Part shown: positions 49,606 to 64,000 of the stretch, one piece after another
Layout of the letters: the number at the start of each line of letters is the position of its first letter
Numbering within the stretch: position 1 is the first letter of the stretch
DNA from: Geothrix sp. 21YS21S-2
GTDB taxonomy: Bacteria; Acidobacteriota; Holophagae; Holophagales; Holophagaceae
DNA: 64,000 bases
Reading direction: 5' to 3'
NCBI RefSeq assembly: GCF_030846775.1
Contig: NZ_CP132910.1
Location: 1,522,001-1,586,000, forward strand
Made by a program: the position numbers and the translations under genes
The notes under the pieces: model-generated
What the model was told of the DNA's origin: nothing
What the model saw: only the letters and a program-made list of their open reading frames with translations
Databases searched by the model: none

Positions 49606-52600
49606 TCAGTGGATGACGCGCCAGGTGCGCATGCGGAACCCGCGGCTGCTCTCCTGGTCCTTCACGGACTTGATGTCGGGGGTATTGGCGCCCACCTGCT
49701 GGGTGAAGGAGCCGGTCTTGGCGCTCACGGCCCCGCCCTGCACCACCCGGTCCCCGGCGTCGGCGAGCTGGCTGCTCAGGGAATTGAAGTAGAAGGCCAG
49801 GCCGGAGCAGTTGTCGGCGCCCTTGTTGAGGGTCGTGATGTCGCCCACGGTGGAATTGGCCTGCACCTGGGTGTCCACCGCCAGGGGCCGCATGATGTCG
49901 CATTCCCGGAAGGTGCGGGTGAAGGCGTTGGAGGAGCAGCCGAAGCCGGAATTGCCGTTGATGTTGAAGATCGAGAAGAAGAGCGTGCCCAGCTTGGTCA
50001 GCGGGCTCACCAGTACCTTGTCGTGGGTCACGCCGCCCACCGCGGAGGGCAGGGCTCCGTCCTTGAGAGTGAAGTAGTACCCCGTCTTGTTCTTGAACAG
50101 GTAGTTGGGGTCGCCGGGGGTGACCCGGGGGTCGGCGTACGTGGTCGTCCAGGACCCGTAGGTGATGGGCTGGAGGCTGGTGTCGGGGATGCCCGTGGTG
50201 TCGTAGCCCAGGTTCTGGCTGTCCTGGCGGTCGGCCAGGACCAGCATCCGGTTGAGGGTGGGCGGGGTGACGGACGCGTTGGTGGGGTACGTCTCGGGCG
50301 CGTCGGTGGGGTTGTTGTTGTCGCCGGACCCGGCGCTCACCATGACGGTCAGGGGCTTGAGGGTCCCGGTGCTGCTTCCGGAGCTGTCGGGCACCGCCAC
50401 GGGGTAGTTGCCGTCCAGCCGGAACGCGTCGGGCCTCTGGGTGAACCGCATGCCGGCGTTGCTGTAGATGAACCGGGGGGCGGTGATCCAGGTGCTGACG
50501 TTGCTGGAATCCAGCCGGAAGGTGGCCTCGGTGGCCTTCAGGTTGGAGTTCAGGGCCATCACGTTGCCCTTCATGTCGGTGAAGTAGACCCGCTGGATTA
50601 TGGGGAAGGTGTTGAAGATGCTCACGGGAGTCACGCCGGCGGGGATGGATCCCACGGCGGTGCTGGCGGAGAAGTCCCAGGTCCTGAGGGGGGCGCCGGT
50701 GAACACGTCCAGGGCCAGGATGGACCGGCCCATGCCCTCGGCGTTCGTGATGGTGCCCTTGGTGCGGTAGGCGCTGTCCACCTGGGCGTTGGCGTAGCCC
50801 CCGGTGAGGAAGACCACGGCCTTCTGGGTGCTGATGGTCCCGTCGGTGGTCACGTAGGTGAACACCGGCACGGAGGTGCTCATGGCCATCTTCTTGACCA
50901 CGTCGCTGGAGGAGGCCAGCTGGGGATCCACGACCCACTGGATCTTGAAGTTCTCGGGGGTCACCGAACCGTCCGTGGCGGACGACAGGCCCAGGGCGTA
51001 GTAGCTGCGGGCGCCCTTGCGCATGCCGAAGACGACGATGGCGTTCTCGGCGCCCAGGGAGACGCGGCTGTCGCCGATGAGCTGCCCGGAAACCGGCTTG
51101 TCCTCCCAGAACAGGGCGGGATCGCCGTCCACCAGGTACCGGTGGGGCACGGTGTCCTCCACGTCCTGGTTGAGGTAGACGTCGTACATGGTGCCCAGCA
51201 TGTCGGGCGGCACGAAGGCCCAGAGCTCGGCGGCCCTGGCGGTCACCACGCCGGCGTTGCTGTTGGCGGCCTCGATGAAGCAGTGCAGGAAGCCCTGGTT
51301 GGTGCCCACCAGCAGGAGGCGGGCGTGGGGATCCGTCCCGCCGGGCCAGGTGAGGCCCGTCGGCAGGTTGCCGGGGCCCAGTTCGATGGCCAGGGGCGCG
51401 GAGTTGATGATGTCACCGAAGATGCCCACGCGGTTCCGGGTGGCGTCGGTGGCGGCCTTGCCGCAATAGTAGTCGAGGAAGGCCTGCACGGAAGCCGTCC
51501 GCGCGGCGGCGGTGGAGAGGGTGGAGGGGAACAGGCCCGCGGCGGCGAACTGGGTCACCAGGGTGCTCACCAGCGCGCTGTTGCTCGACCGGAAGCGCAC
51601 CTTGGCGGTCGTGCCCGGCGTCAGGGTCCAGATGGTGCGGTCGCTCCACAGGGTGGGGGTCCCGGACAGCGTGTTCTCGGGATGGACGGTCGCGCCCAGG
51701 GGCAGGTCGGCGGCGACGTAGGTGCCGAAGATGTCGAAGGCGCTCCACAGGTGGTGGTCGTCGAAGTTGTTCAGGCCGCACTGGTAGGTGGGCTTGCCCG
51801 AGGCGTCCAGTACCGGGTCGCCGTTGGTGTCCAGGATCATCACGCACCCGATGGTGCTCTCGCCCTGGTTGCCGTAGAAGGAGAAGACCTCGGTGTTGGT
51901 GACGGTGTCGAGGGTGCGCTTGATGCCCACGGAGAAGAGGTTGCCGGTCCAGGCGGGCTTGCGGCTGGTCTTGAAGATGCCGAAGTAGGCCTGGGTGGTG
52001 GTCTTGGTGCCCGTGGTAGGCGTGGCGGGGGCGCTGAGGGCGGCCGCGCCGGAGACCATGTAGTTGGCCACGTCGTTGAGGTTGGCCTCCAGGGCCGAAG
52101 GGCTTCCGGAGGGGTAGTAGAAGACCTGGCCCCCGTCCAGCTTGGACTGATCCGGGTTGTTCCCCTTGCTGGGGCGCCAGCCTCCGTAGCCCAGGTCCGT
52201 GCGGGACGGATCGGCCCACTGGGCGATCTTGAAGAACTCGCCCTCGTAGGAGCGCTGGTTGTGGGCGGAATCGTAGTTCAGGTTGCCGGGCAGGCCCACG
52301 CTCACCACCATGGTCTGGATGCCCGGGTTGGCGGCGGACCGCGCCCGGCCGGGAGCGACCTCCCAGGCCGCGCCCCAGCTGCCGGAGTTGTTGGAGCTGT
52401 CGCCGAAGGCCGCGATGTCCGACAGGACGCCCGGGTGGAAGTTGTCCGTGGTGGGCGTGAGGGCCGTGATGGACGGGGCCTTGAGGTAGGCCCCCGTGCC
52501 GCCCTTGTTCAGGCCGGAGTTGCCGTTGGTGGTGTAGTTCTGGTACGCCACGGCGGCGTCCTGCGAGATGCGCGTGGGCGAGCCCGTGTCCGTGGAGTCC

Positions 52601-54096
52601 GTGAGGCCCAGGGTGGGGAAGATCACGACGTAGGTCTTGCCCGGGCAGGAGGCGTTGGACGCCTCGAACACGGTGGAGTTCACTTCGATGCTGGCGCGGT
52701 AGTAGGTGTTGGCCAGGGCGTAGGCCCAGGGCTGCGGGGTGCGGGGATCCATGGGCCCGATGGGGGCGCTGTTGCCGGTGGCCGACACGGCGTCCATGGC
52801 GTCATAGCTGGCAGGGGCGGAGGCGTAGGCCTGGACCCAGCCCGAGGGCCCCATCAGCTGCAGGCTGGTCCCGTTGGTGGTCAGCCCCCCTCCCGTGCCG
52901 TCCAGGCCGGAAATGAGCTTTCGCAGGAAGCGCCGGTTGGCGACGGTGGTGTCGGCCCAGAGGGCGCTCTGGCTGGGATTGGCCGTGATGGAGGTGGTGG
53001 GGGCGCCGCCCTCCTCCGAGTTGCCCGGGTTGTCGACCCGGCCGTCGACGTAGCGGTAGATCCAGTTGAACTTGCCGTCCTTGCGAAGGAGCACGTCGAT
53101 GCAGGCGATCTTCTGCGCCTGGTACCGGGTGAGCACGGGCAGGCCGTTGGCCCAGCCCTCCGCGGGGGTGGAGGCCGCGAAATCGGGGACCGTCGTGTTC
53201 TCGGTGGTGGCGGGGACGGCGTAGCCTCCGGGGGAGGCGTAGTTCCCGCTGGTGGGGGCGCTGCGCCAGTCCACCCCGTTGGTGCCGCGGATCAGCTTGC
53301 TGCCGTAGATCCAGCACAGGTAGTCCAGGGGATAGTAGAAGTTGCCCATGCCCGCATAGCCGGCGGGGATGTTCGCCAGGATCCCTCCCGTGGCGGGGTT
53401 CACGGCCGTGTTGTTGGCCTCCGACCAGGGGTCGTACTGGATGGTGGTGCCCCCGGCGACGCGCTTCTGGTAGTTGGTGACGAGGGTGTTGCCGGGGGCG
53501 GTGGGCACCGTCGCGGAGGCGGCGTAGGGGCTGTTCCACACCTGCGAGGGGCAGGGAAGGTCGATGGAGCGGGTCGTGCTGCCGGTCCTGAGCGCGAAGC
53601 GCACATGGGTGATCTGGGCGATGGTGGCCGAGGCCGTGCCCTGCCAGGTGACCACGGTGCCCGTGAAGCTCCCGTTGAAGTTGTAGGGCGTGCCGGCGAC
53701 CGGGGCGCCGCCTTCCGAATAGAAGGTCTGCGTCTGAGCCCACTGGTAGAGGTAGACGTTCACCGGGGTGCCCACCGTCGGGACGGCGGGGGTCTTCAGG
53801 AGGAAGATGAAGCCGTAGTCCTTCCCGGTCCTCTTCACCGTGAGCCCCGAGAGCGGCACGGCGTCGACCCACTTGTCGCGCCCGGAATAGGTGGAGTACG
53901 TGCCCACCTCGTAGATGGCGCGGCTGCTGGTCATGAAGTCCAGGATCGTGATGAGCTGGCTCCGGCCCGCGTCGGTCTTGTACACGTCCAGCAGGTCCGT
54001 GCGCGTGAGGAGCTGGGGCTCCACCTGGGCGCTTGCGGGCAGGGCGAGGCAGAGCAGGGTCAGGGCGGCTGTGAGGAAACGGTTCCTGGCAAGCAT
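49606..54096 (-). CDS. pilY1: Type IV pilus tip adhesin PilY1 / PilC-like
   Basis: A 1496-residue secreted protein with signal peptide (LTAALTLLCLALPASA). The N-terminal half is a variable, possibly adhesive region; the C-terminal part, from about residue 860, contains the PilY1 beta-propeller (for example ENAIVVFGMRKGARSYYAL). A calcium-binding EF-hand-like loop LDTNGDPVLD is near residue 750. PilY1 sits at the pilus tip and, with PilV, W and X, primes pilus assembly. It follows pilX by 18 nt. Confidence 0.85.
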   Translation of the reverse strand: MLARNRFLTAALTLLCLALPASAQVEPQLLTRTDLLDVYKTDAGRSQLITILDFMTSSRAIYEVGTYSTYSGRDKWVDAVPLSGLTVKRTGKDYGFIFLLKTPAVPTVGTPVNVYLYQWAQTQTFYSEGGAPVAGTPYNFNGSFTGTVVTWQGTASATIAQITHVRFALRTGSTTRSIDLPCPSQVWNSPYAASATVPTAPGNTLVTNYQKRVAGGTTIQYDPWSEANNTAVNPATGGILANIPAGYAGMGNFYYPLDYLCWIYGSKLIRGTNGVDWRSAPTSGNYASPGGYAVPATTENTTVPDFAASTPAEGWANGLPVLTRYQAQKIACIDVLLRKDGKFNWIYRYVDGRVDNPGNSEEGGAPTTSITANPSQSALWADTTVANRRFLRKLISGLDGTGGGLTTNGTSLQLMGPSGWVQAYASAPASYDAMDAVSATGNSAPIGPMDPRTPQPWAYALANTYYRASIEVNSTVFEASNASCPGKTYVVIFPTLGLTDSTDTGSPTRISQDAAVAYQNYTTNGNSGLNKGGTGAYLKAPSITALTPTTDNFHPGVLSDIAAFGDSSNNSGSWGAAWEVAPGRARSAANPGIQTMVVSVGLPGNLNYDSAHNQRSYEGEFFKIAQWADPSRTDLGYGGWRPSKGNNPDQSKLDGGQVFYYPSGSPSALEANLNDVANYMVSGAAALSAPATPTTGTKTTTQAYFGIFKTSRKPAWTGNLFSVGIKRTLDTVTNTEVFSFYGNQGESTIGCVMILDTNGDPVLDASGKPTYQCGLNNFDDHHLWSAFDIFGTYVAADLPLGATVHPENTLSGTPTLWSDRTIWTLTPGTTAKVRFRSSNSALVSTLVTQFAAAGLFPSTLSTAAARTASVQAFLDYYCGKAATDATRNRVGIFGDIINSAPLAIELGPGNLPTGLTWPGGTDPHARLLLVGTNQGFLHCFIEAANSNAGVVTARAAELWAFVPPDMLGTMYDVYLNQDVEDTVPHRYLVDGDPALFWEDKPVSGQLIGDSRVSLGAENAIVVFGMRKGARSYYALGLSSATDGSVTPENFKIQWVVDPQLASSSDVVKKMAMSTSVPVFTYVTTDGTISTQKAVVFLTGGYANAQVDSAYRTKGTITNAEGMGRSILALDVFTGAPLRTWDFSASTAVGSIPAGVTPVSIFNTFPIIQRVYFTDMKGNVMALNSNLKATEATFRLDSSNVSTWITAPRFIYSNAGMRFTQRPDAFRLDGNYPVAVPDSSGSSTGTLKPLTVMVSAGSGDNNNPTDAPETYPTNASVTPPTLNRMLVLADRQDSQNLGYDTTGIPDTSLQPITYGSWTTTYADPRVTPGDPNYLFKNKTGYYFTLKDGALPSAVGGVTHDKVLVSPLTKLGTLFFSIFNINGNSGFGCSSNAFTRTFRECDIMRPLAVDTQVQANSTVGDITTLNKGADNCSGLAFYFNSLSSQLADAGDRVVQGGAVSAKTGSFTQQVGANTPDIKSVKDQESSRGFRMRTWRVIH

Positions 54097-54114
54097 GGCG
54101 GATCTCCCGGGAGC

Positions 54115-54708
54115 CTAGTTGATGTACTGGACGACGGATTCGCGGCGCGAAACGAAGGACTGGTTGGTGCCGGCGATGTTGGCCCGGCCCGTGGTCTGCA
54201 GCAGCCAGAGGCTCTGGCTGCTCTTGATGAGGCTGCTCTGGGTCGTGTTGCTCAGCTGGTAGGCCCCCAGGTAGCGGAGCTCGGCGTCGAAGGAGGGCTG
54301 GACGGCGGTGGACTGGAGGTAGGAGGACGTCGGCGGCGTCATGTTGCCGCCGATGACGGATCCGGTCAGAGCGGTGCGCATGGTGCCCGAAGCGTCGGTG
54401 TAGGCGCTCCTGTTGGTGTCCGAGTAGATCGCGGCCAGCAGCGCGGTCATGCTGCTCTGGAGGCTCGCGGCGGCGGGGTCGGCTGCGGTGTTGGAGTAGG
54501 GGCTGCCCCAGGTGAGGGTCCAGTCCATGGCCGAGTCGGCGGTCTCGAAGGCCTTGCGCCCCGTGGACTCGTTGCCCACGATGAGCATCTCCCGCAGCGA
54601 CGTGCGGCTCAGGCCCATGGCGGCCACGGTGACCACGCTCAGCAGGATCAGGGCCACGACGATGGAAATGCCTCCAGCTTCCCTGGGGTTGTAGCGCATG
54701 GTCAGCAT
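54115..54708 (-). CDS. pilX: PilX-like minor pilin
   Basis: A 197-residue protein with an N-terminal basic segment followed by a hydrophobic helix (GGISIVVALILLSVVTVAAMGL), LREMLIVGNESTGRKAFETADSAMDW being the PilX hallmark. It lacks the classical GFTLxE processing site, as PilX proteins often do. It is 4 nt downstream of pilW and followed by pilY1. Confidence 0.75.
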   Translation of the reverse strand: MLTMRYNPREAGGISIVVALILLSVVTVAAMGLSRTSLREMLIVGNESTGRKAFETADSAMDWTLTWGSPYSNTAADPAAASLQSSMTALLAAIYSDTNRSAYTDASGTMRTALTGSVIGGNMTPPTSSYLQSTAVQPSFDAELRYLGAYQLSNTTQSSLIKSSQSLWLLQTTGRANIAGTNQSFVSRRESVVQYIN

Positions 54709-54712
54709 CTCC

Positions 54713-55891
54713 TCAAGGGGCGCCGAGCCCGAAATTCCGGGGGGACAGCATGATGGTTTCCCGCCGCGTGCGGTAGGCGACGGGGCTCGCCGCCCCGGCC
54801 CGCGCGTAGTCGGTGCGCTGGACCTCCGAGCGGGTGGTGACGTTGAGCTGGATGAGCACGGGCGCGTAGTTCATCCAGAAGGGATCGGCCAGGCTGGTTC
54901 CGCCCGCGGCCAGCTTGGTCAGGGGGCTGGCGCTGGCGGCGAGGGCCTGGTTCAGGGCCGTGCGGATGGAGGTCCAGGCGTCCCCGGCCCCGCCTGCGCG
55001 CAGCCAGGTCCTGCCTGCGTCCAGGCTCCAGTCCACCGTGAAGCCCACGACGTTCTCCAGGAGGATCTGCTCCTGGGCGGGCGCCACGACGGCGGCGGTG
55101 CCCGGCGCGAAGATGGCGCCGGCGTTGCCCGCGAGGGGCTGCGACTGGCGCACGAGGCAGGGCACCACGGCCGCGGGGTCGGCGGGATTCAGGTTCCGGG
55201 GCACCACGGTGTAGCGCACCACCTGGAGGGGACGGAAGACGCTGATCTGGGCCCCGGGCAGGTGGGGCTTCTGCACCAGGGCATGCACCAGGGGGTTGGT
55301 GTCATTGCCGTAGGCGTCGACCAGATTCTCCTGGGCGCCCACGATGTTGACCGTGAAGCCCACGGCGCCTCCGGGGTTGGGTGCGGCGCCCACCTGGAAC
55401 ACTTCCCAGTTGGAGTCCTGGACGAACAGGATGTCGCCGGCCTGGATGATGTTTCCACCGTAGGACATGTTGACCTGCAGGGAGGCGTCGCCCAGGGCGC
55501 AGCCCGCGGCCAGGGTGCCCCGGGCGTTCAGCGGAAGATCGAGGACGATCTGGAGCTCGTCCACGGCGGCGGTTCCGCCGGGGGGCACGTAGCCCGTGGA
55601 CTGCATGAGCATGGGGGGCTGGGACGCGGCGCTGGTGGGATCGATCTCGGCGACGACGCGCTTGTAGTAGAGGTGCCCCGCGGCCAGGACCTCCTCCTGG
55701 AGCTGCACCAGGCCCTGGCGCGACTTGCGCTGGACGTTCATGGTCTCCATGCCGCTGACCATCACCGAGGTGGACCCGGCGAAGAGTCTGACCATGCCGG
55801 CCATGAGGATGCCCATGAAGACCATGGCCACGGCCATCTCGACGAGGGAGAAGCCGCGCCTGGAGGCGAGGGGGAGATCAGATCCGGACAT
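54713..55891 (-). CDS. pilW: PilW-like minor pilin
   Basis: A 392-residue prepilin with leader ending ASRRG and processing site G|FSLVEMAVAMVFMGILMAGM. The large C-terminal domain fits PilW. It overlaps pilV by 14 nt and is 4 nt from pilX, so the five genes are translated as one operon. Confidence 0.82.
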   Translation of the reverse strand: MSGSDLPLASRRGFSLVEMAVAMVFMGILMAGMVRLFAGSTSVMVSGMETMNVQRKSRQGLVQLQEEVLAAGHLYYKRVVAEIDPTSAASQPPMLMQSTGYVPPGGTAAVDELQIVLDLPLNARGTLAAGCALGDASLQVNMSYGGNIIQAGDILFVQDSNWEVFQVGAAPNPGGAVGFTVNIVGAQENLVDAYGNDTNPLVHALVQKPHLPGAQISVFRPLQVVRYTVVPRNLNPADPAAVVPCLVRQSQPLAGNAGAIFAPGTAAVVAPAQEQILLENVVGFTVDWSLDAGRTWLRAGGAGDAWTSIRTALNQALAASASPLTKLAAGGTSLADPFWMNYAPVLIQLNVTTRSEVQRTDYARAGAASPVAYRTRRETIMLSPRNFGLGAP

Positions 55892-56420
55892 TGCGCCCCA
55901 CCGAGAAGTATTTGGAGGCGCTGGCCGTGGCGCCCCCGCTGGTACGGACGAGTTCCTGCCACTGGACGTTGACGACGAAGTTGGCCACGGCGTTCTTCTG
56001 GCCGGCCAGGACCCCCGCGTCCCGCTGCCAGGAGAGGGTGAAGATCCGGTTCGGGCTGTTGGCGGCGACGGCCGTCCCGGTGATGTCGAAGAAGAGGTTC
56101 TCGGCCGCGGAGGAGGCGTGGGCGGTGTAGAGGACGGGATCGATGTAGCGGTAGCCCCCGGTGGTCACGGCGCCCGTGGGGCTCTGCATGCGCTCGCCTG
56201 AGCTCAAGATGCCCTCCGCGGTGACCGCGTCCATGAAGTTGTGCGCCAGGAGGATGGCGGTTCCGCGCTCCCGCCCCGCGGTGGCCGAGGCGAGGGAGGC
56301 CCCCTGGAGGGTCAGCAGTCCCAGGAGGCCGATGGCCATGATGAAGGCCACCATCAGCATCTCCACCATGCTGAATCCGGCCTCGTGGCGGGGAGGCGGC
56401 ATCAGTCCAGGCGTTTCCAT
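55878..56420 (-). CDS. pilV: PilV-like minor pilin
   Basis: A 180-residue prepilin with G|FSMVEMLMVAFIMAIGLLG processing and N-methylation region, followed by a globular domain with a RERGTAILLAHNFMDAV segment typical of PilV. ATG 56420 (GGAG 5 nt upstream) is chosen; ATG 56402 (TGATG overlap with fimT) is an alternative that also leaves the leader intact. Confidence 0.8.
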   Translation of the reverse strand: METPGLMPPPRHEAGFSMVEMLMVAFIMAIGLLGLLTLQGASLASATAGRERGTAILLAHNFMDAVTAEGILSSGERMQSPTGAVTTGGYRYIDPVLYTAHASSAAENLFFDITGTAVAANSPNRIFTLSWQRDAGVLAGQKNAVANFVVNVQWQELVRTSGGATASASKYFSVGRNVRI

Positions 56421-57097
56421 TTCAGCTCCGGGGGGGTGTCGAGTTGGCTGTCCGCCTTGTAGAAGGCGAGGGTCATTCCCTGTTCGTTCACCAGGACCAC
56501 GCCGTAGGGCACGCCCTGACGGTTGGCGCTGGCGCCGGTCACGCCGATCCAGCCGCCCCCCACCAGGGTGGCGGCGGATCCGCCGGAGGCGGCCACCGAC
56601 TGGAGGTTGCCGGTGGCGTTGAACCCGAACAGCCGGGAGGAGGAACCCAGCGGGGCGTTCCAGAAGGCGGTGCCGCCCATGAAGGTCGTCATGGCCGCGA
56701 CGTCGCCCGGGGGCGCCACTTCATTCGCCGCCAGGGGGAGGCTCAGCCCCACCTTGGCGTACCGGCGCCAGGAGGCGTCCAGGGCGGTGGTGAGGCGAGG
56801 GGTGGTCTCCAGCTGGAGGTAGCCGGGGCTGGCGGGGTCAAGGCTCTGGATGGCGACGTACTGGACGGTGCCCGTCGTGAAATCGGGCCTCATGACCACC
56901 GTCTGCCCGGTGGATAGCGCGAGGCTCCGGGCCTGGAGCACCATGCCTCGCACGTCCTGCAGGCCATGCTGGACCGCCCGGGGCGTCCTCGGGGCGAAGC
57001 TGGAGGCCGTGGCGATGGCGAGGATGGCGACGATGGCCAGGACCACGAGCAGTTCCGTCAGGGAAAACCCCGATTCTCTGGATGGCTGGGTCCGCAT
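56402..57097 (-). CDS. fimT: FimT/GspH-like minor pilin
   Basis: A 231-residue prepilin. Processing site G|FSLTELLVVLAIVAILAIA at about residues 10-11 and a C-terminal GspH/FimT domain (RSLALSTGQTVVMRPDF, the region surrounding the FimT landmark). It opens the minor-pilin operon and may initiate pilus assembly. A sigma-54-like promoter lies about 170 nt upstream. Confidence 0.8.
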   Translation of the reverse strand: MRTQPSRESGFSLTELLVVLAIVAILAIATASSFAPRTPRAVQHGLQDVRGMVLQARSLALSTGQTVVMRPDFTTGTVQYVAIQSLDPASPGYLQLETTPRLTTALDASWRRYAKVGLSLPLAANEVAPPGDVAAMTTFMGGTAFWNAPLGSSSRLFGFNATGNLQSVAASGGSAATLVGGGWIGVTGASANRQGVPYGVVLVNEQGMTLAFYKADSQLDTPPELKWKRLD

Positions 57098-57266
57098 TCG
57101 GGGTGTCCTCTCGTACTCGGGGAAGGTGTCGGGGCTTGGAAACAGATGGCGCTCAATGAAATGCCGATCACCTGCCCGAGACCACCTTGATGTTCTCCAT
57201 GGACCCTGATTTCAGGCGGGGGGGCTTGGCATTCCAAGACCTGGACCTTCGGTTTGCACTTTTTCA

Positions 57267-57282
57267 ATCAATAAGCGTGCCA
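57267..57282 (-). promoter_or_regulatory. Candidate sigma-54 (-24/-12) promoter for the minor-pilin operon
   Basis: TGGCACG-CTTA-TTGAT with GG and GA 12 bp apart. The -24 element is perfect; the -12 element has A for the conserved C. It lies in the 277-nt gap between the FecR gene and fimT, upstream of the pilins, next to a sigma-54 activator gene. No gene is seen in the gap. Confidence 0.45.
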
Positions 57283-57374
57283 CGGCCTCCCGGAAGGATT
57301 CCCGGCCGTTCCCCGGCCGCCTTCGCGTCATTTCGACCCGTTCTCGACCCCGCCGCGGGTCCGATCGACTCGCC

Positions 57375-58073
57375 TTATTTGGTCTTGGGACCGCCGGGCG
57401 TCGGGTGCGGCTTGCCCTGCCCCACCACCGCCGGCACGCGGGCCCCGGGGGCCAGGACGGTGTCCGGGCGCCCGCCCTGGCTCCAGGCCTTGTGCAGGTA
57501 GCCCTGGCCGTGGACGACCTCCACCTTCGGCGTTTCAGCCGGGCTGAACGTGGACATTTCGCCCGCCTTCACCTGGAACGGCATGCCCTGGTGCCCCTTG
57601 GCCAGGACCTCGACCACGCCCTCGAAGACGGTCAGGGTGGTCCGGCCCGCCCAGTCCACCTCCACCCCGTATGTCGTCCCCCGGACCGCCAGCAGGGCGC
57701 CGGGTACGGCGATCTTCCGCTCCTGCGGGCCTCCGGTAAGGGCCTTGAAAAAGCACATGATGCGTCCCTGATCCAGGGTCAGCAGCACCCCCGGCTCCCC
57801 CCCCGCGAGCTTGACGTGCGTGCTGGCGAGGATTTCGAACCGGGCGCCGCGGGAGGGAACGGCCAGGACCGTGCGGCCCCACCAGCCGGTGCGCACCGCA
57901 TCCCCCGGGGGGGCGGTGTCTCCCTGGGCCGCCTTGCGTTCCTTGGTCCTGTCCCCTCCGGGCCAGCGCTGGACGGAGGGCTTGACCTCCTCGAACTGGT
58001 ACAGGAGAACGTCCGGCTGCGGCACGGGCGCCTGGAGAAGATTCAACAGCAGCGGGGCCATCAGCCAATTCAT
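57375..58073 (-). CDS. FecR-domain protein
   Basis: A 232-residue protein with a short hydrophobic N-terminus (MNWLMAPLLLNLLQA) and a FecR core (KIAVPGALLAVRGTTYGVEVD, FEGVVEVLAKG), a beta-rich domain. FecR-domain proteins often occur with CHASE2 sensors and are thought to be envelope ligands or sensors. No sigma factor is present here, so it is not a classic FecR anti-sigma factor. It overlaps the response regulator gene by 4 nt. Confidence 0.75.
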   Translation of the reverse strand: MNWLMAPLLLNLLQAPVPQPDVLLYQFEEVKPSVQRWPGGDRTKERKAAQGDTAPPGDAVRTGWWGRTVLAVPSRGARFEILASTHVKLAGGEPGVLLTLDQGRIMCFFKALTGGPQERKIAVPGALLAVRGTTYGVEVDWAGRTTLTVFEGVVEVLAKGHQGMPFQVKAGEMSTFSPAETPKVEVVHGQGYLHKAWSQGGRPDTVLAPGARVPAVVGQGKPHPTPGGPKTK

Positions 58074-59443
58074 GATTCATCTCCATCCGGCAGGTCCACG
58101 CCGTACGCATCGACCGGCTTGAGCTTGCGGGCGAGGGTCTTCCGTTCGATGCCGAGGATCCGGGCGGCCTCGGTCTTGTTCCCCCGCTCATGGGCGAGCA
58201 CGGCGAGGAGGTACATCCGCTCCATCTCCTCCAGGGACACGAAGGGCGCCTGGAACGCGGCGGGCGACAGGGCCGTCCCGGCCCCCTGCCCCTCCAGGCC
58301 TCCGAGGATGCGCCGCACGGTGTCGGGGTCGTCCAGGGAGCCGCACTCGATGAGCGCGCGGCGGACCACGTGGCCCAGTTCGCGCACGTTGCCCGGCCAG
58401 GGGTGCGCCGCCAGGAGCGCCAGCACGTCCCGGGAAAGCGCCCCGATCCCCGGCAGCCCCAGCTCGCCCAGGAACCGCGACTGGAAGTGCGCGATCAGCG
58501 CGGGCAGGTCCGAAAGCCGGTCCCGGAGGGGCGGGACCCGGATCTCGTAACCCGCGAGGCGGTAGTAGAGGTCCTCCCGGAAGGCGCCGCTGGCCACCAT
58601 GGCCTTCAGGTCCCGGTAGGTGGCGGTCACCACCCGCACCTCCACGGGTTCCGGGCGTTCCGCCCCGAGGGGCTGGATGACGCCGTCCTCGAGGAACCGC
58701 AGCAGCTTGACCTGGAAGACGGGGGAGATCTCGCCGATCTCGTCCAGGAAGACGGTCCCGCCGTTCGCCAGGGCCAGGGCGCCCTGGCGGTCCCGGTGGG
58801 CGTCCGTGAAGGCCCCCCTCCGGTGGCCGAAAAGCTCGCTTTCAATGAGCGTGTCGGGGAGGGCGCCGCAGTGGACGGGCACGAAGGGCCCCTCGGGGTG
58901 CCTGCCGAAGCTGTGGAGGGCCCGGGCCACCAGCTCCTTCCCCGTGCCGGTCTCCCCGAAGATCATGACCGGGACGTGCATGGGCGCGACCCGGCCGGCG
59001 GCCTTGTAGACCTCCACGATGGAAGGATGCGAGCCGATGATGACGCTCGCAGGACCGCTTTCGACGGCCGGAACCTCGGGCGCCCGCTGCCGGAGCGCGG
59101 CCCGCACGCATCCGATCATGTCCTGGAGATCGAACGGCTTGGCCAGGTAGTCCGCGACCCCCTCCTTCAGGGCCTGGGCGGCGGTCTCGATGGAGCCCCT
59201 GGCCGTGATGATGATGACGGGCGGGGGATCCGGCAGTTCCCGGACCTCCCTCAGCAGGTCCATCCCGCTCCCGTCCGGCAGGTAGATGTCGGCGAGCACC
59301 GCATCCGGCCGCCGGTCCCGGATGGCGCGCCGGGCCGCCGCCAGATTCTCGGCCCGGGCCACCCGGTAGCCGGTCTTCTCCAGGGCGAGGGCCGCCATCT
59401 CACGGATCGCCAGGTCGTCGTCCACCACGAGAACCCACGTCAT
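58070..59443 (-). CDS. Sigma-54-dependent response regulator (NtrC-like)
   Basis: A 457-residue regulator. REC domain with phosphoacceptor D52 (DAVLADIYLPDGSG), AAA+ ATPase with Walker A GETGTGKE and ESELFGHRRGAFTDA, and a Fis-type HTH (NKTEAARILGIERKTL). The loop contacting sigma-54 is GAFTDA where GAFTGA is canonical. Pairs with the CHASE2 kinase (4-nt overlap). Likely target: the minor-pilin promoter. It may also control the block itself. Confidence 0.88.
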   Translation of the reverse strand: MTWVLVVDDDLAIREMAALALEKTGYRVARAENLAAARRAIRDRRPDAVLADIYLPDGSGMDLLREVRELPDPPPVIIITARGSIETAAQALKEGVADYLAKPFDLQDMIGCVRAALRQRAPEVPAVESGPASVIIGSHPSIVEVYKAAGRVAPMHVPVMIFGETGTGKELVARALHSFGRHPEGPFVPVHCGALPDTLIESELFGHRRGAFTDAHRDRQGALALANGGTVFLDEIGEISPVFQVKLLRFLEDGVIQPLGAERPEPVEVRVVTATYRDLKAMVASGAFREDLYYRLAGYEIRVPPLRDRLSDLPALIAHFQSRFLGELGLPGIGALSRDVLALLAAHPWPGNVRELGHVVRRALIECGSLDDPDTVRRILGGLEGQGAGTALSPAAFQAPFVSLEEMERMYLLAVLAHERGNKTEAARILGIERKTLARKLKPVDAYGVDLPDGDES

Positions 59444-61185
59444 TCCGCCCTCCGGACCAGCGGGAGTCTAACACGGAACACACTGCCGTCCCCCGGGCCC
59501 TCCAGGACCCCGACCTCGCCGCGGTGCCAGGCGACCACCTCCGCCACCAGGGCGAGACCCAGGCCCAGGCCCTGCGCCATCCCCTGGGCGCTGCCCCGGG
59601 CGAACCGCCCGAAGATTCGCTCCCGCTCCCCGGGGGGGATGCCGGGCCCGCGGTCGGCGACCTCCAGGACGGCCCAGCCCTCCGCCTCCCGGAGGGCGAC
59701 GGCCACCGGGGCCCCCTCCGGGGAGAACTTGACCGCGTTGGCGACGAGGTTCTCCAGGACCCGGTCCAGGAGGGCCGGGTCTCCCAGCACCCCCAGGCCG
59801 GCGGCCAGGTCCGCGGTGATCGCCCGCGAGGTGCCGGCGCGGAGGAAGTCCACCCGCTTTCCCCACAGGGCGGAGAGGTCCAGGGGCCGGGCGTCCCGGT
59901 GGAAATCCCGCAGGCCCAGGCGTTCCAGGTCAAGGAGGTCATCCACCATCCGGGCGAGCCGTGAGGTTTCGGACACCACCATCCCGGCGACGCGGTTCCG
60001 TTCCTCCACCGAAAGGTTGAACTGGGCCAGGAGCTGGGCCAGCCCCTTCATGGATGTCAGGGGGGTCTTGAGCTCGTGGGCCACCCTCCGGCGGGCCTCG
60101 GCATCCTGGGTCCGCAGCGCCGCCTGGGCGGCCTGGAGGCGCTCCAGTTCCTCGATCCGGGACCGTGCGTCGCCCTCGGCCCGCCCCGCCCGCCGCACCC
60201 GCGCCAATCCCGCCAGGATGACCAGGGGCAGCAGCATCGCCAGGGGAGCCAGTTCGACCTTGAGGAAGGCCTGGGCCGCCAGGGCGAACAAGGGCGGGGC
60301 CAGAAGGACGGCGGGGGCGAGGGCGCGGCGGACCCGGCCCGGAGCCTCCGTCAGGAAGGCCCCCAGGAGGGCGAGGCCGAAGGCCAGCAGCGCGTCCACG
60401 AGGGGCGGAGCCTCCCGCATCAGGTCCCCGGACAGGATGGCCTCGGCCGCCACCGCCTCCACCAGCACCCCGGGATCCGGGGAGCCGTCCCTGGAAAGGG
60501 GCGAGACGAACCGGTCCCCGACGCCCGCGGCGCTTATGCCGATGAAGACGATCCGCTGCCGGAGGGCCTCCGCCGGACGACCCGCGAGCACCGTGGCGGC
60601 GTCCACCGCGGGGACCGGCCAGGTGCGGTAGCCGGGCCGGAGGGTCACGGCCACGGGCACCGGCCGGCGCGGATCGCCGAGGCGCGCGGCCGCGACAGAG
60701 AGCGCGGGGAGGACCCGTCCACCCCGCTCCTTGGTGGAGGAGAACCGGCGCACCACCCCGTCCCGGTCCAGGTCGTAGCTCACATGTCCCACCGCGGCCC
60801 CCCGCAGGGCCCGGTTCGGAAGCACCCACTCGCCCGAATCGTCCATGCCGGCGGCGAGCAGGGACGGCCCCCGCTCCAGGGCGCGCGCCAGCAGGGCGTC
60901 TCCCGCCCTCTCCTCCGGCAGCAGCAGATCGATCACGACGCCCTTGGCCCCCGCGTCGAACACCCCCTGGACCAGGGCGGCCAGCCGCGCCCGGTCCCAG
61001 GGCCAGCTGCCGCCCGCGCGGAGGGCCTCCTCGTCGATGAGCACGACCGCGACCTTGGCGGCCGGCTTGGAGGGGAGACGGCGCAGCAGGGCATCGCGGA
61101 GGAGCAGCTCGGCCGGATCCACGATCCCCGCCAGGCGCAGACCGAGGGTGACGGCAAAGACCAGCGCGGGCCAGAGCGGTTTCAG
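59440..61185 (-). CDS. CHASE2-domain sensor histidine kinase
   Basis: About 581 residues. N-terminal transmembrane helix (LWPALVFAVTLGLRLAG), periplasmic CHASE2 domain (about 40-260), three further helices, then HisKA (RRVAHELKTPLTSMKGL) and HATPase (LENLVANAVKFSPEG, DRGPGIPPGE, GLGLGLALV). Start: the first GTG (61122) would remove the helix; an in-frame CTG at 61185 is 7 nt after a perfect AGGAGG and no ATG, GTG or TTG lies between the upstream stop and 61122, so CTG is preferred. Confidence 0.85.
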   Translation of the reverse strand: MKPLWPALVFAVTLGLRLAGIVDPAELLLRDALLRRLPSKPAAKVAVVLIDEEALRAGGSWPWDRARLAALVQGVFDAGAKGVVIDLLLPEERAGDALLARALERGPSLLAAGMDDSGEWVLPNRALRGAAVGHVSYDLDRDGVVRRFSSTKERGGRVLPALSVAAARLGDPRRPVPVAVTLRPGYRTWPVPAVDAATVLAGRPAEALRQRIVFIGISAAGVGDRFVSPLSRDGSPDPGVLVEAVAAEAILSGDLMREAPPLVDALLAFGLALLGAFLTEAPGRVRRALAPAVLLAPPLFALAAQAFLKVELAPLAMLLPLVILAGLARVRRAGRAEGDARSRIEELERLQAAQAALRTQDAEARRRVAHELKTPLTSMKGLAQLLAQFNLSVEERNRVAGMVVSETSRLARMVDDLLDLERLGLRDFHRDARPLDLSALWGKRVDFLRAGTSRAITADLAAGLGVLGDPALLDRVLENLVANAVKFSPEGAPVAVALREAEGWAVLEVADRGPGIPPGERERIFGRFARGSAQGMAQGLGLGLALVAEVVAWHRGEVGVLEGPGDGSVFRVRLPLVRRAE

Positions 61186-61221
61186 GGCAGGGCCTCCTCT
61201 CCAAGGGCGGGCATCGGATCC

Positions 61222-61995
61222 TCAGGGGCGGTAGGAGAGGGAGAGCCCGAAGCGGGTCCTGGGGGCTCCATCGTTCAGCCCCGCGCCGAAGGAGGCGCCG
61301 AGGGCGAAGGGATACCCGAGGCTCTGGTACAGCTCCAACGCGACCTCCCGCGGGGCGGGCATTCCCGGATACTGGGAACCCTGGCCCAGCCACGTGAGGG
61401 AGACCTTGGAACGTCTGCCTTCGTAGGAAAGCCCGGCGCCGGCCGTGTAGATGCCTGCGCGGATGGGAGTCCCGGCCGCGTCCTTGCTGGAGGAGCTCTG
61501 GATCCAGCCGCCGGACGCCGAGAACTGGATCCGGCCAAACCGCTGGTGGGCCGCCAGGAAGCCGCCCACATCGGTCAGCCCGGTCCCAAGTCCCTTGTCT
61601 TTCTTGGCAGTGGGCAGCTTCACGGCCAGGCCCCCGTCCAGGGCCTGGCCGCCGAGGGTCTCGGGCAGGATGCGGCGGAGGCCCCGGACGAGGACGTCCC
61701 CCAACCCGGTCGTCCTTATGGTCTTGCCCCCCTCCTGGCTTTCAACCCGCAGGTAGGGGACCGCCACGTTCACGTCGTAGCTGGAGGTGGCCAGGCCTGC
61801 CGCGCCGTAGGCCAGGTCCAGGCGGTTGGTGGTGGCGAGGCCGTAGTCCCCCTGCCGGCGCCCGATCCCGGCCTCGAGGTAGCCCGAGGGCGCCTGGGCA
61901 GGGAGACCCGCGGACGAGAATGCCGCCACCCAGGCCAACAGGCCCATCCGCGCCCATGCCCCGGCGGAAGGAAGGGATCCGACGCCGTTTCCCAC
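61222..61995 (-). CDS. Outer-membrane beta-barrel-like protein
   Basis: A 257-residue secreted protein with signal peptide (ARMGLLAWVAAFSSAGLPAQA) and alternating strands (YLEAGIGRRQGDYGL, VNVAVPYLRVESQ, GLSYEGRRSKVSLTWLG, ending RFGLSLSYRP), fitting an outer-membrane barrel of unknown class. GTG 61995 is chosen because AAGGAG lies 6 nt upstream; the longer frame upstream has no signal peptide. It precedes the CHASE2 kinase by 36 nt and probably belongs to the same signalling operon. A porin-like sensor role is inferred. Confidence 0.65.
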   Translation of the reverse strand: MGNGVGSLPSAGAWARMGLLAWVAAFSSAGLPAQAPSGYLEAGIGRRQGDYGLATTNRLDLAYGAAGLATSSYDVNVAVPYLRVESQEGGKTIRTTGLGDVLVRGLRRILPETLGGQALDGGLAVKLPTAKKDKGLGTGLTDVGGFLAAHQRFGRIQFSASGGWIQSSSSKDAAGTPIRAGIYTAGAGLSYEGRRSKVSLTWLGQGSQYPGMPAPREVALELYQSLGYPFALGASFGAGLNDGAPRTRFGLSLSYRP

Positions 61996-62167: not shown

Positions 62168-62197
62168 TTCACGGTTCCAGGACTTTGGTTGTATAAT
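62168..62197 (+). promoter_or_regulatory. Sigma-70-like promoter for the propeller protein gene
   Basis: -35-like TTCACG (62168-62173) and perfect -10 TATAAT (62192-62197), spaced 18 nt, in an AT-rich island in the 302-nt gap 61996-62297. A 12-bp palindrome (AGCAAGCTTGCT) lies at 62242-62253. Confidence 0.5.
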
Positions 62198-62306
62198 ATT
62201 TGCATTCCAGCTAAATTACAAAAGCTGAAACAATTAGCAGAAGCAAGCTTGCTACGATCGCCCTTCCATGGTCCGGAGCAAGCCTAGGGGGCCTGCCTTG
62301 GCAACC

Positions 62307-64000
62307 ATGAACGACCTCTTGCGGCTGACCCTGGCCCTGCTGGTGGGCCTGGGATCGCTGCGGGCTCGCCCGCCGGAGCCCCCCGGCCGCTTGAAGTGGC
62401 TGGAATTCGGACTCGAGGACGGCCTTCAGGACCTAAACATTTCAACACTCAGCCAGGACAGGGACGGGTTCGTCTGGGTCGGCACCGAGACGGGCCTGCA
62501 CCGCTTCGACGGGAAATCCTTCCAGAGCTTTAGGCGTCCGAATGGGCTGCCCAGCAGCGTGGTCCAGGCGGTCCTGGTCCATCCCGACGGGAAGCTCTGG
62601 ATCGGCACCTTCCGGGGCCTGGCCCGCAGCGAGGGGGACCGGTTCGTTGCCGTGGGCGCCGGCCTGCCCGATCCGGCCCCGTCCATCACGGCCCTGGCCG
62701 TCGGACCCGGGGGGCGCCTCCATGTGGGAACCGCCACCGGCCCCTACCGGCAAACCACCGGGGATCATTTCGAAACCATGCCCTCCTGGCCCGGGGGCGC
62801 CGTTGCCGCCCTTGCATCCCTGCCCGAAGGAGGGGGGCTGGTCGCCTCCTCCTGGGATGGTCACCGGGCCCGGGTGTTCAGGGCGGAGGGCGGGGCCTGG
62901 CAGGAGCTTGCGGGCCCCGCGGGTTTCGGGAAACGGCCCCTGCGTGCGCTCGCGGTGGATGGAACGGGAACGCTCTGGGCCCGTTCGACGGAGGCCCTCT
63001 GGTGCCTCAGGCAGGGGAGGTTCGAACCCGCGCCGTTCCCGGTGAAACGAACCAATGGGGGCGTGAGCCTCCACGTGGACGGACGGGGACGGCTCTGGAT
63101 GCCGGGCAACAGCGAGCTTGTGTGGCTGGACAAGGGGGACGTCCTGAGGATGGGCGTGAAGGAGGGGTGGCCCGGAGGGCTCGGAGCGGCCGTCCTGATG
63201 GATCGGGGGGGCGCCCTCTGGGCGGGTGGACGGGGGCTCGGGAGGGTCAAGGGCCGCCGGTTCTGGCGCAGCCATGGCGCCGAGAGCGGCCTGGCGGATC
63301 CGTGCGTCTGGAGCCTGATCCGGGACAGGTTCGGGACGATGTTCGCGGGGACCCAGCGGGGACTGGCCCGGCTGGGGCCCGGCGGATGGCAGATGATCCC
63401 CGGAACGGAGGACACCCAGGTCCGGTCCGTGGTCCAGGGGCCTGATGGCGCCTTCTATCTGGCGGGCTCGGCCTGGGTGCGGCGGTGGGACCCGGCCACG
63501 GGACAGACCGTTAAATTCGGGCCGCAGCAGGGGGTTCGAGCCGATGGCCGCATCTTCCGCCTGGTGTTCGACCGCTCGGGCACGCTGTGGGTGGCGACGG
63601 ATTCAGGCGGCCTTTTGCGGGGAACCGGCCATGGGAGCCTGTGGGGCTTCACCCCTGAACCGCTGCCTGGCGGCACACCCAGGGAATCCATCGGGGACCT
63701 CCACGAGGATGCCGAAGGCCGGCTCTGGGCCGCGGGCGAACATGGCCTGGCCCTCCGCGAAGGCGGCCGATGGCGCCGCTTCACCCGCCAGGACGGCCTG
63801 CGCGAGGACGCCCTGGACTTCACGCGGTCCCTTCGCAACGGCGACCTGCTCCTGGCCTACTCCAGCAACCTCGGGGTGGCGCGGGCCCGCTACGACAAGG
63901 GGCGGTTCCGCATCCTGAAGCATTTCGACGCGGAGATCGATCCGGCCCTGACGATCTTCCTCCTGGGTGAGGATGTCCACGGCAACCTGTGGGTCGGCTC
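62307..64000 (+). CDS. Two-component-regulator propeller protein (partial, runs off window)
   Basis: Open to the window end without a stop (about 564 codons). After a signal-like helix (LLRLTLALLVGLGSL), repeated Reg_prop motifs occur (DGFVWVGTETGLHRFDG, GKLWIGTFRGLARS, GTLWVATDSGGLLRG, GRLWAAGEHGLALREGG), forming a periplasmic beta-propeller sensor. Such proteins usually continue with a Y_Y_Y domain, a membrane helix and a kinase, cyclase or GGDEF output, which would lie beyond the window. Starts at ATG 62307, or possibly TTG 62298 or ATG 62268 in frame. Confidence 0.75.
   Translation, partial: MNDLLRLTLALLVGLGSLRARPPEPPGRLKWLEFGLEDGLQDLNISTLSQDRDGFVWVGTETGLHRFDGKSFQSFRRPNGLPSSVVQAVLVHPDGKLWIGTFRGLARSEGDRFVAVGAGLPDPAPSITALAVGPGGRLHVGTATGPYRQTTGDHFETMPSWPGGAVAALASLPEGGGLVASSWDGHRARVFRAEGGAWQELAGPAGFGKRPLRALAVDGTGTLWARSTEALWCLRQGRFEPAPFPVKRTNGGVSLHVDGRGRLWMPGNSELVWLDKGDVLRMGVKEGWPGGLGAAVLMDRGGALWAGGRGLGRVKGRRFWRSHGAESGLADPCVWSLIRDRFGTMFAGTQRGLARLGPGGWQMIPGTEDTQVRSVVQGPDGAFYLAGSAWVRRWDPATGQTVKFGPQQGVRADGRIFRLVFDRSGTLWVATDSGGLLRGTGHGSLWGFTPEPLPGGTPRESIGDLHEDAEGRLWAAGEHGLALREGGRWRRFTRQDGLREDALDFTRSLRNGDLLLAYSSNLGVARARYDKGRFRILKHFDAEIDPALTIFLLGEDVHGNLWVG

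Follow-up and report, generated by a model that had tools for sequence, protein, structure and literature searches.

A histidine kinase with a CHASE2 domain, a regulator of the NtrC type, a FecR-domain protein and an outer-membrane barrel are encoded directly before the genes of a minor-pilin/PilY1 operon in the 64,000-nucleotide stretch of DNA analysed here (the window). This neighbourhood raises the question of whether the regulator governs pilus-tip assembly, and whether such a link is a general property of these signalling genes or particular to one lineage. The host, a soil Acidobacteriota, has a genome of 5.25 Mb on a single contig. We called domains with Pfam and NCBIfam scans of the block genes together with the list of open reading frames (ORFs), and compared the locus with those of relatives.

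Gene content of the block

The first gene set (61995-57375, minus strand) encodes the outer-membrane barrel, the CHASE2 histidine kinase, the NtrC-type regulator and the FecR protein. It is followed after 277 nt by FimT-, PilV-, PilW-, PilX- and PilY1-like genes (57097-49606, minus strand). A previous sequence-only reading had described nine genes in this order and in one direction, and the ORF list and domain scans bear this out, as they do the 4-nt overlaps between the kinase and regulator genes and between the regulator and FecR genes. The 36-nt gap reported between barrel and kinase genes holds if the kinase starts at CTG 61185; the next in-frame start is GTG 61122.

The barrel gene (61222..61995, minus strand) likely starts at GTG 61995, within a longer ORF that begins at 62205. 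Its product has a weak Phenol_MetA_deg match, and its AlphaFold model is a barrel with 13 assigned strands and a mean pLDDT of 76. The best structural neighbours found with Foldseek are FapF and COG4313 outer-membrane channels, at an identity of about 13-16% and a TM score of about 0.6, and no further Fap components were identified among the neighbours of the gene. A candidate sigma-70-like promoter for the four genes of this set (TTGTAA-17-TATTAT; 62193..62221, minus strand) was called by consensus match only. A large open frame with propeller-like repeats (62268-63998, plus strand), judged by eye to be of a sensor type, diverges from the barrel gene across a common intergenic region and continues past the window end.

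The kinase (59440..61185, minus strand, when read from CTG 61185) carries a CHASE2 domain (E=7e-38), HisKA and HATPase, and it is the sole CHASE2 protein of the host genome. The regulator (58070..59443, minus strand) has the REC, sigma-54 AAA+ and Fis HTH domains of the NtrC family, its gene overlaps that of the partner kinase, and rpoN is present in the genome. Its loop reads GAFTDA in place of GAFTGA, as does that of every regulator of such modules matched by motif search; two other activators of the host genome share it. The FecR-domain protein (57375..58073, minus strand) scores 23.4 bits, slightly below the Pfam cut-off of 24.0. It ends in a Met-free tail, and an alignment of 18 homologues revealed the secreted domain only, with the anti-sigma region absent.

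The order of the five downstream genes, all on the minus strand, and their prepilin signals are those of a type IVa minor-pilin/PilY1 operon. The FimT/GspH-like protein (56402..57097) has an N_methyl match, the PilV-like protein (55878..56420) matches TIGR02523 with 38.3 bits, below the cut-off of 52.2, the PilW-like protein (54713..55891) was assigned by position and a weak N_methyl match, and the PilX-like protein (54115..54708) matches PilX_N with 34.2 bits. The PilY1-like tip protein (49606..54096; 1,496 aa) gave no Pfam or NCBIfam match, and the proteins of its relatives are likewise unnamed; a profile built from ten relatives matches PilY1 of P. aeruginosa (PDB 3HX6) with E=1.5e-11.

A composite element between fecR and fimT

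Activators of sigma-54 bind upstream activating sequences (UAS) and remodel the sigma-54 polymerase at -24/-12 promoters. The fecR-fimT gap, whose content the sequence-only reading had left unmentioned, holds tandem palindromes of the type CGGGTC-N5-GACCCG followed by TGGCACG-N4-TTGA. UAS-1 (CGAGTCGATCGGACCCG; 57356..57372) and UAS-2 (CGGGTCGAAATGACGCG; 57324..57340), both on the minus strand, each agree with 11 of 12 consensus positions and lie 73 and 41 nt, respectively, before the -24 element of a sigma-54-type promoter (TGGCACG-CTTA-TTGA; 57268..57282, minus strand) that is conserved in relatives. UAS-2 recurs as an identical 17-bp palindrome before the host's own DUF4382 gene. Neither a terminator nor a sigma-70 promoter was matched on the minus strand between fecR and fimT.

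Exact TGGCACGNNNNTTGA sites occur twice in the 5.25-Mb genome, once as the gap promoter and once between hisS and a MarR-like gene (L088; C1:3630022-3630036). We disregarded the latter, as it does not fit the composite pattern. The canonical TGGCACG-N4-TTGC has no site genome-wide, and YTGGCACR-N4-TTGCW has a single match, outside the window. The -12 dinucleotide of the window promoter is GA, as opposed to the usual GC, and the promoter of the congener UBA692 (G005, locus L048, a metagenome-assembled genome (MAG)) reads TTGT at this position. Because further activators of this genome also have GAFTDA, we make no claim that the loop is tied to GA at -12.

Close homologues of the kinase, full or fragmented, are patchily distributed over 17 genomes of the family Holophagaceae, which includes Geothrix paludis, UBA692 and UBA706 (congener G003) as well as the window genome, and two genomes from a different family of this phylum. 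The kinase, regulator and FecR genes are consecutive in all 19 relative loci that are intact at contig ends; the barrel gene is usually near this triad, in variable position. In most of these loci TGGCACG-N4-TTGA follows directly after fecR, or after the barrel gene where the latter follows fecR, and in some it stands before another gene of the cluster. Two of the 16 family loci with the triad lack such a site (L036, L046), and in the other family, where the triad is present, a -24/-12-like site was seen at one locus only, without palindromes. Across 19 compared sites, TGG and TTG are invariant, CACG is almost invariant, and TTG is followed by A in 18.

Most loci have two palindromes before the promoter, which end some 30 and 62 nt upstream of -24. 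The corresponding distances are 41 and 73 nt in the window and 61 and 92 nt in UBA692, so that the spacing between them stays near the 32 bp found in most loci while the pair as a whole is shifted by about three helical turns in UBA692 and by about one in the window, where both palindromes lie 11 bp farther from the promoter than usual. A search for the composite pattern in 150 relatives yielded 15 matches, compared to 4 for the reversed pattern that served as control. Of the 15, twelve are located at the module or beside genes of the DUF4382/DUF5666 type. Two others come from genomes that lack the kinase, and the remaining one, from UBA706, is seemingly spurious. The own genome, searched in the same way, holds the element exactly twice, before the pilins and before the DUF4382 lipoprotein gene (control: zero), and these two are its predicted target units.

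Targets in relatives and origin of the pilin pairing

Separation of the block from the pilin set in relatives, which the earlier reading had named as an outcome that would refute it, is largely what the family shows. Pilins stand next to the kinase module in 2 of the 17 family genomes with the kinase, those of the window and of UBA692. The best-matching pilin operons of the other relatives have the identical five-gene order at separate loci, and the composite element is absent from these standalone operons as well as from the host's second copy (L127; own genome C1:180000-199000), a FimT-PilV-PilW-PilX-PilY1-like operon strongly diverged from that of the window. Most standalone operons carry a palindrome GTGTAT..ATACAC, which the window operon lacks. 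This GTGTATNCTTTTTATACAC-type palindrome, found about 90-215 nt before the FimT-like start in L116, L117, L119-L122, L126 and L127, is likely an operator.

The usual targets of the element are DUF4382 lipoproteins (L041, L044, L048), DUF4382/DUF5666 or DUF5666 lipoproteins (L033, L037, L039, L043 and, by likeness, L038, L040, L042, L045) and small Met-rich secreted proteins (L034, L035, L037). The proposal that the sigma-54 regulator switches on the pilins finds good support in cis for the host genome, from the tandem UAS and -24/-12 promoter in the gap and from the recurrence of this element behind the regulator in most relatives, but not as a case of a conserved pilus regulator. Together, the rarity of the pilin neighbourhood and the nature of the usual targets point to a regulator of lipoproteins that gained a pilin operon; judged by these comparisons, the pairing is lineage-specific, the pilins having apparently been captured by a pre-existing lipoprotein regulon.

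The nine-gene block is found again in the independent UBA692 MAG, where an additional gene separates FecR from FimT; together with the constant order of the triad, this recurrence speaks against a chance neighbourhood. In UBA692, the order is promoter, DUF4382, FimT, and the DUF4382 and FimT genes touch. No DUF4382 gene is present at the window locus. The genome does have a homologue at a distance of 195 kb (L082:874-2025, corresponding to C1:1382330-1383481 of the own genome), which shares 74% identity with the UBA692 copy and is preceded by the UAS-2 palindrome and TGGTACG-N4-TTGA. TatA-like, multihaem cytochrome-like and ArsR-like regulator genes adjoin it.

In phylogenetic trees, the window module groups in one clade with those of UBA692 and congener G002, and the pilins of the window and UBA692 fall among Geothrix copies, separate from those of congener G001. 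Synonymous divergence between the window genome and UBA692 is 0.38-0.52 for the module genes and 0.31-0.43 for the pilins, and in the same comparison the pilins are under purifying selection, which is stronger than on the module for most pilin genes. We considered and rejected a recent exchange of the pilin operon between these two genomes, given the similar synonymous divergence of operon and module; this likeness suggests that the arrangement probably predates the split of the host genome and UBA692 and has been kept since.

The most likely history thus reconstructed has a DUF4382-pilin intermediate. Ancestrally, the module would have controlled lipoproteins. In the ancestor of the host species and UBA692, a Geothrix-like minor-pilin operon would have been placed behind the DUF4382 gene, under the same promoter, a stage that UBA692 appears to retain. 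In the window lineage, the locus presumably lost DUF4382, of which a homologue elsewhere retained an element of its own, and the pilins would as a result have become the first genes of the transcript.

A further pattern concerns the FecR C-termini. In 11 systems the last 50 residues contain 5-9 Met, and the targets are Met-rich where readable; in four (window, G002, G005, G047) they contain none, and the lipoprotein targets are Met-poor. The tail type changed at least twice on the tree. Most module FecR proteins outside the window's genus have His/Met-rich tails reminiscent of metal-binding proteins, an observation made on the C-termini of L033-L043, L045, L046, L049 and L050. In this small sample (11 versus 4 systems), the pattern hints at a metal- or product-linked signal. 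Tentatively, these modules might form an undescribed CHASE2/FecR class of sigma-54 systems in Acidobacteriota, with a portable promoter of two palindromes and TTGA, cargo that varies by lineage and a FecR tail matched to it, although we consider this proposal as a whole rather doubtful. If true, the class would read envelope or metal state, with lipoproteins, Met-rich proteins and a pilus-tip operon as its cargo, and the match of tail and cargo would make FecR a sensor linked to the products of its regulon. Our literature search, which lay mostly outside subscription journals, returned no report joining DUF4382 or CHASE2-FecR with sigma-54.

Proposed control of the pilins and known systems

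We consider it probable that an envelope-sensing CHASE2/NtrC/FecR module, an older lipoprotein regulator, drives the pilin operon through the UAS and the sigma-54-type promoter of the gap. The barrel channel and the secreted FecR are probable sensory partners of the CHASE2 kinase in a joint sensor, and the kinase would phosphorylate the regulator. The latter would bind the two tandem 17-bp palindromes just after fecR and, by analogy with QseEGF, act on sigma-54 polymerase to remodel and open it at TGGCACG-N4-TTGA, which would be the main promoter of the minor-pilin/PilY1 operon. We infer binding, phosphorylation, sigma-54 dependence, signal and phenotype alike from sequence comparison. With the lipoprotein regulator's switch now before pilus-tip genes, one envelope signal is predicted to control pilus priming; as the element also precedes the DUF4382 gene, this signal should co-induce a surface lipoprotein.

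The element precedes lipoprotein genes in most relatives and the host's DUF4382 gene has its own copy, so the module might serve the lipoprotein regulon only, with the pilins behind a relict promoter and either silent or expressed from elsewhere. The longer UAS distance of the window would fit such decay. However, the UAS pair and promoter are intact, shifted by a helical turn and undegraded, the pilin reading frames are open and show purifying selection, and the gap has no other promoter match, which makes a relict improbable. We regard as somewhat less probable still that the pilins are the distal part of a single transcript running from the barrel gene to PilY1 from the sigma-70-like promoter at 62221-62193, with a minor role for the gap element. 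All genes are indeed co-directional, no terminator was matched in the gap, and read-through from the fecR transcript could be an alternative source of pilin expression; against this stand the 277-nt gap, the occurrence of the two-part element just twice in 5.25 Mb, and its position in relatives before unrelated cargo, partly away from the module. The FecR-like domain might also suggest an iron-uptake neighbourhood in which FecR is the classical anti-sigma regulator of an ECF sigma factor. This is highly implausible, since no sigma factor gene adjoins among the block genes, the FecR protein always follows an NtrC-type regulator, and neither the adjacent ECF gene nor the anti-sigma part of FecR that define FecIR systems was found in the block.

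Under control by the gap element, the locus would illustrate in cis, down to single bases, how an operon for pilus priming can pass from one regulator to another: the window operon lacks the upstream palindrome of its standalone kin and has the lipoprotein regulator's element instead, with an intermediate in a congener. It also predicts the DNA sites at which a CHASE2/FecR regulator would act, and thereby makes signal and regulon directly testable.

In its working, the module resembles QseE-QseG-QseF of E. coli, which likewise consists of a kinase, an envelope accessory protein and an NtrC-type regulator; QseF, bound to several UAS, activates a sigma-54 promoter next to the operon that encodes it (PMC6075780). 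However, QseEGF has no CHASE2 or FecR, its accessory protein is the lipoprotein QseG, its UAS is TGT-N12-ACA and its targets are glmY and rpoE (PMC6075780). As the window module has a CHASE2 kinase instead of QseE and FecR instead of QseG, it does not belong to that system. Closer in composition is the BiofilmReg operon of Burkholderia contaminans, which combines a response regulator, a FecR-domain secreted protein and a CHASE2 kinase, and in which an insertion in the regulator gene abolished biofilm formation (PMC5192318). The window likewise encodes a CHASE2 kinase and a FecR-domain secreted protein with a response regulator. In BiofilmReg, however, the regulator is of the OmpR/CreB type, LysM is part of FecR and PAS of the kinase, and DUF4136 is next (PMC5192318), whereas the window has an NtrC-type regulator and an outer-membrane barrel, followed by the sigma-54-type element, with no match for LysM on FecR or for DUF4136 among the scanned block genes. 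The proposed regulatory link may help to explain the biofilm effect of the CHASE2/FecR system in Burkholderia. As regards the target, the closest parallel is FimS-AlgR of P. aeruginosa, whose kinase and regulator belong to the LytS and LytTR families. This two-component system positively controls the minor-pilin/PilY1 operon fimU-pilVWXY1E, and the text consulted describes no sigma-54-type promoter (PMC5979040). In contrast to FimS-AlgR, the window regulator is of the NtrC rather than the LytTR type, and its gene is adjacent to the pilins.
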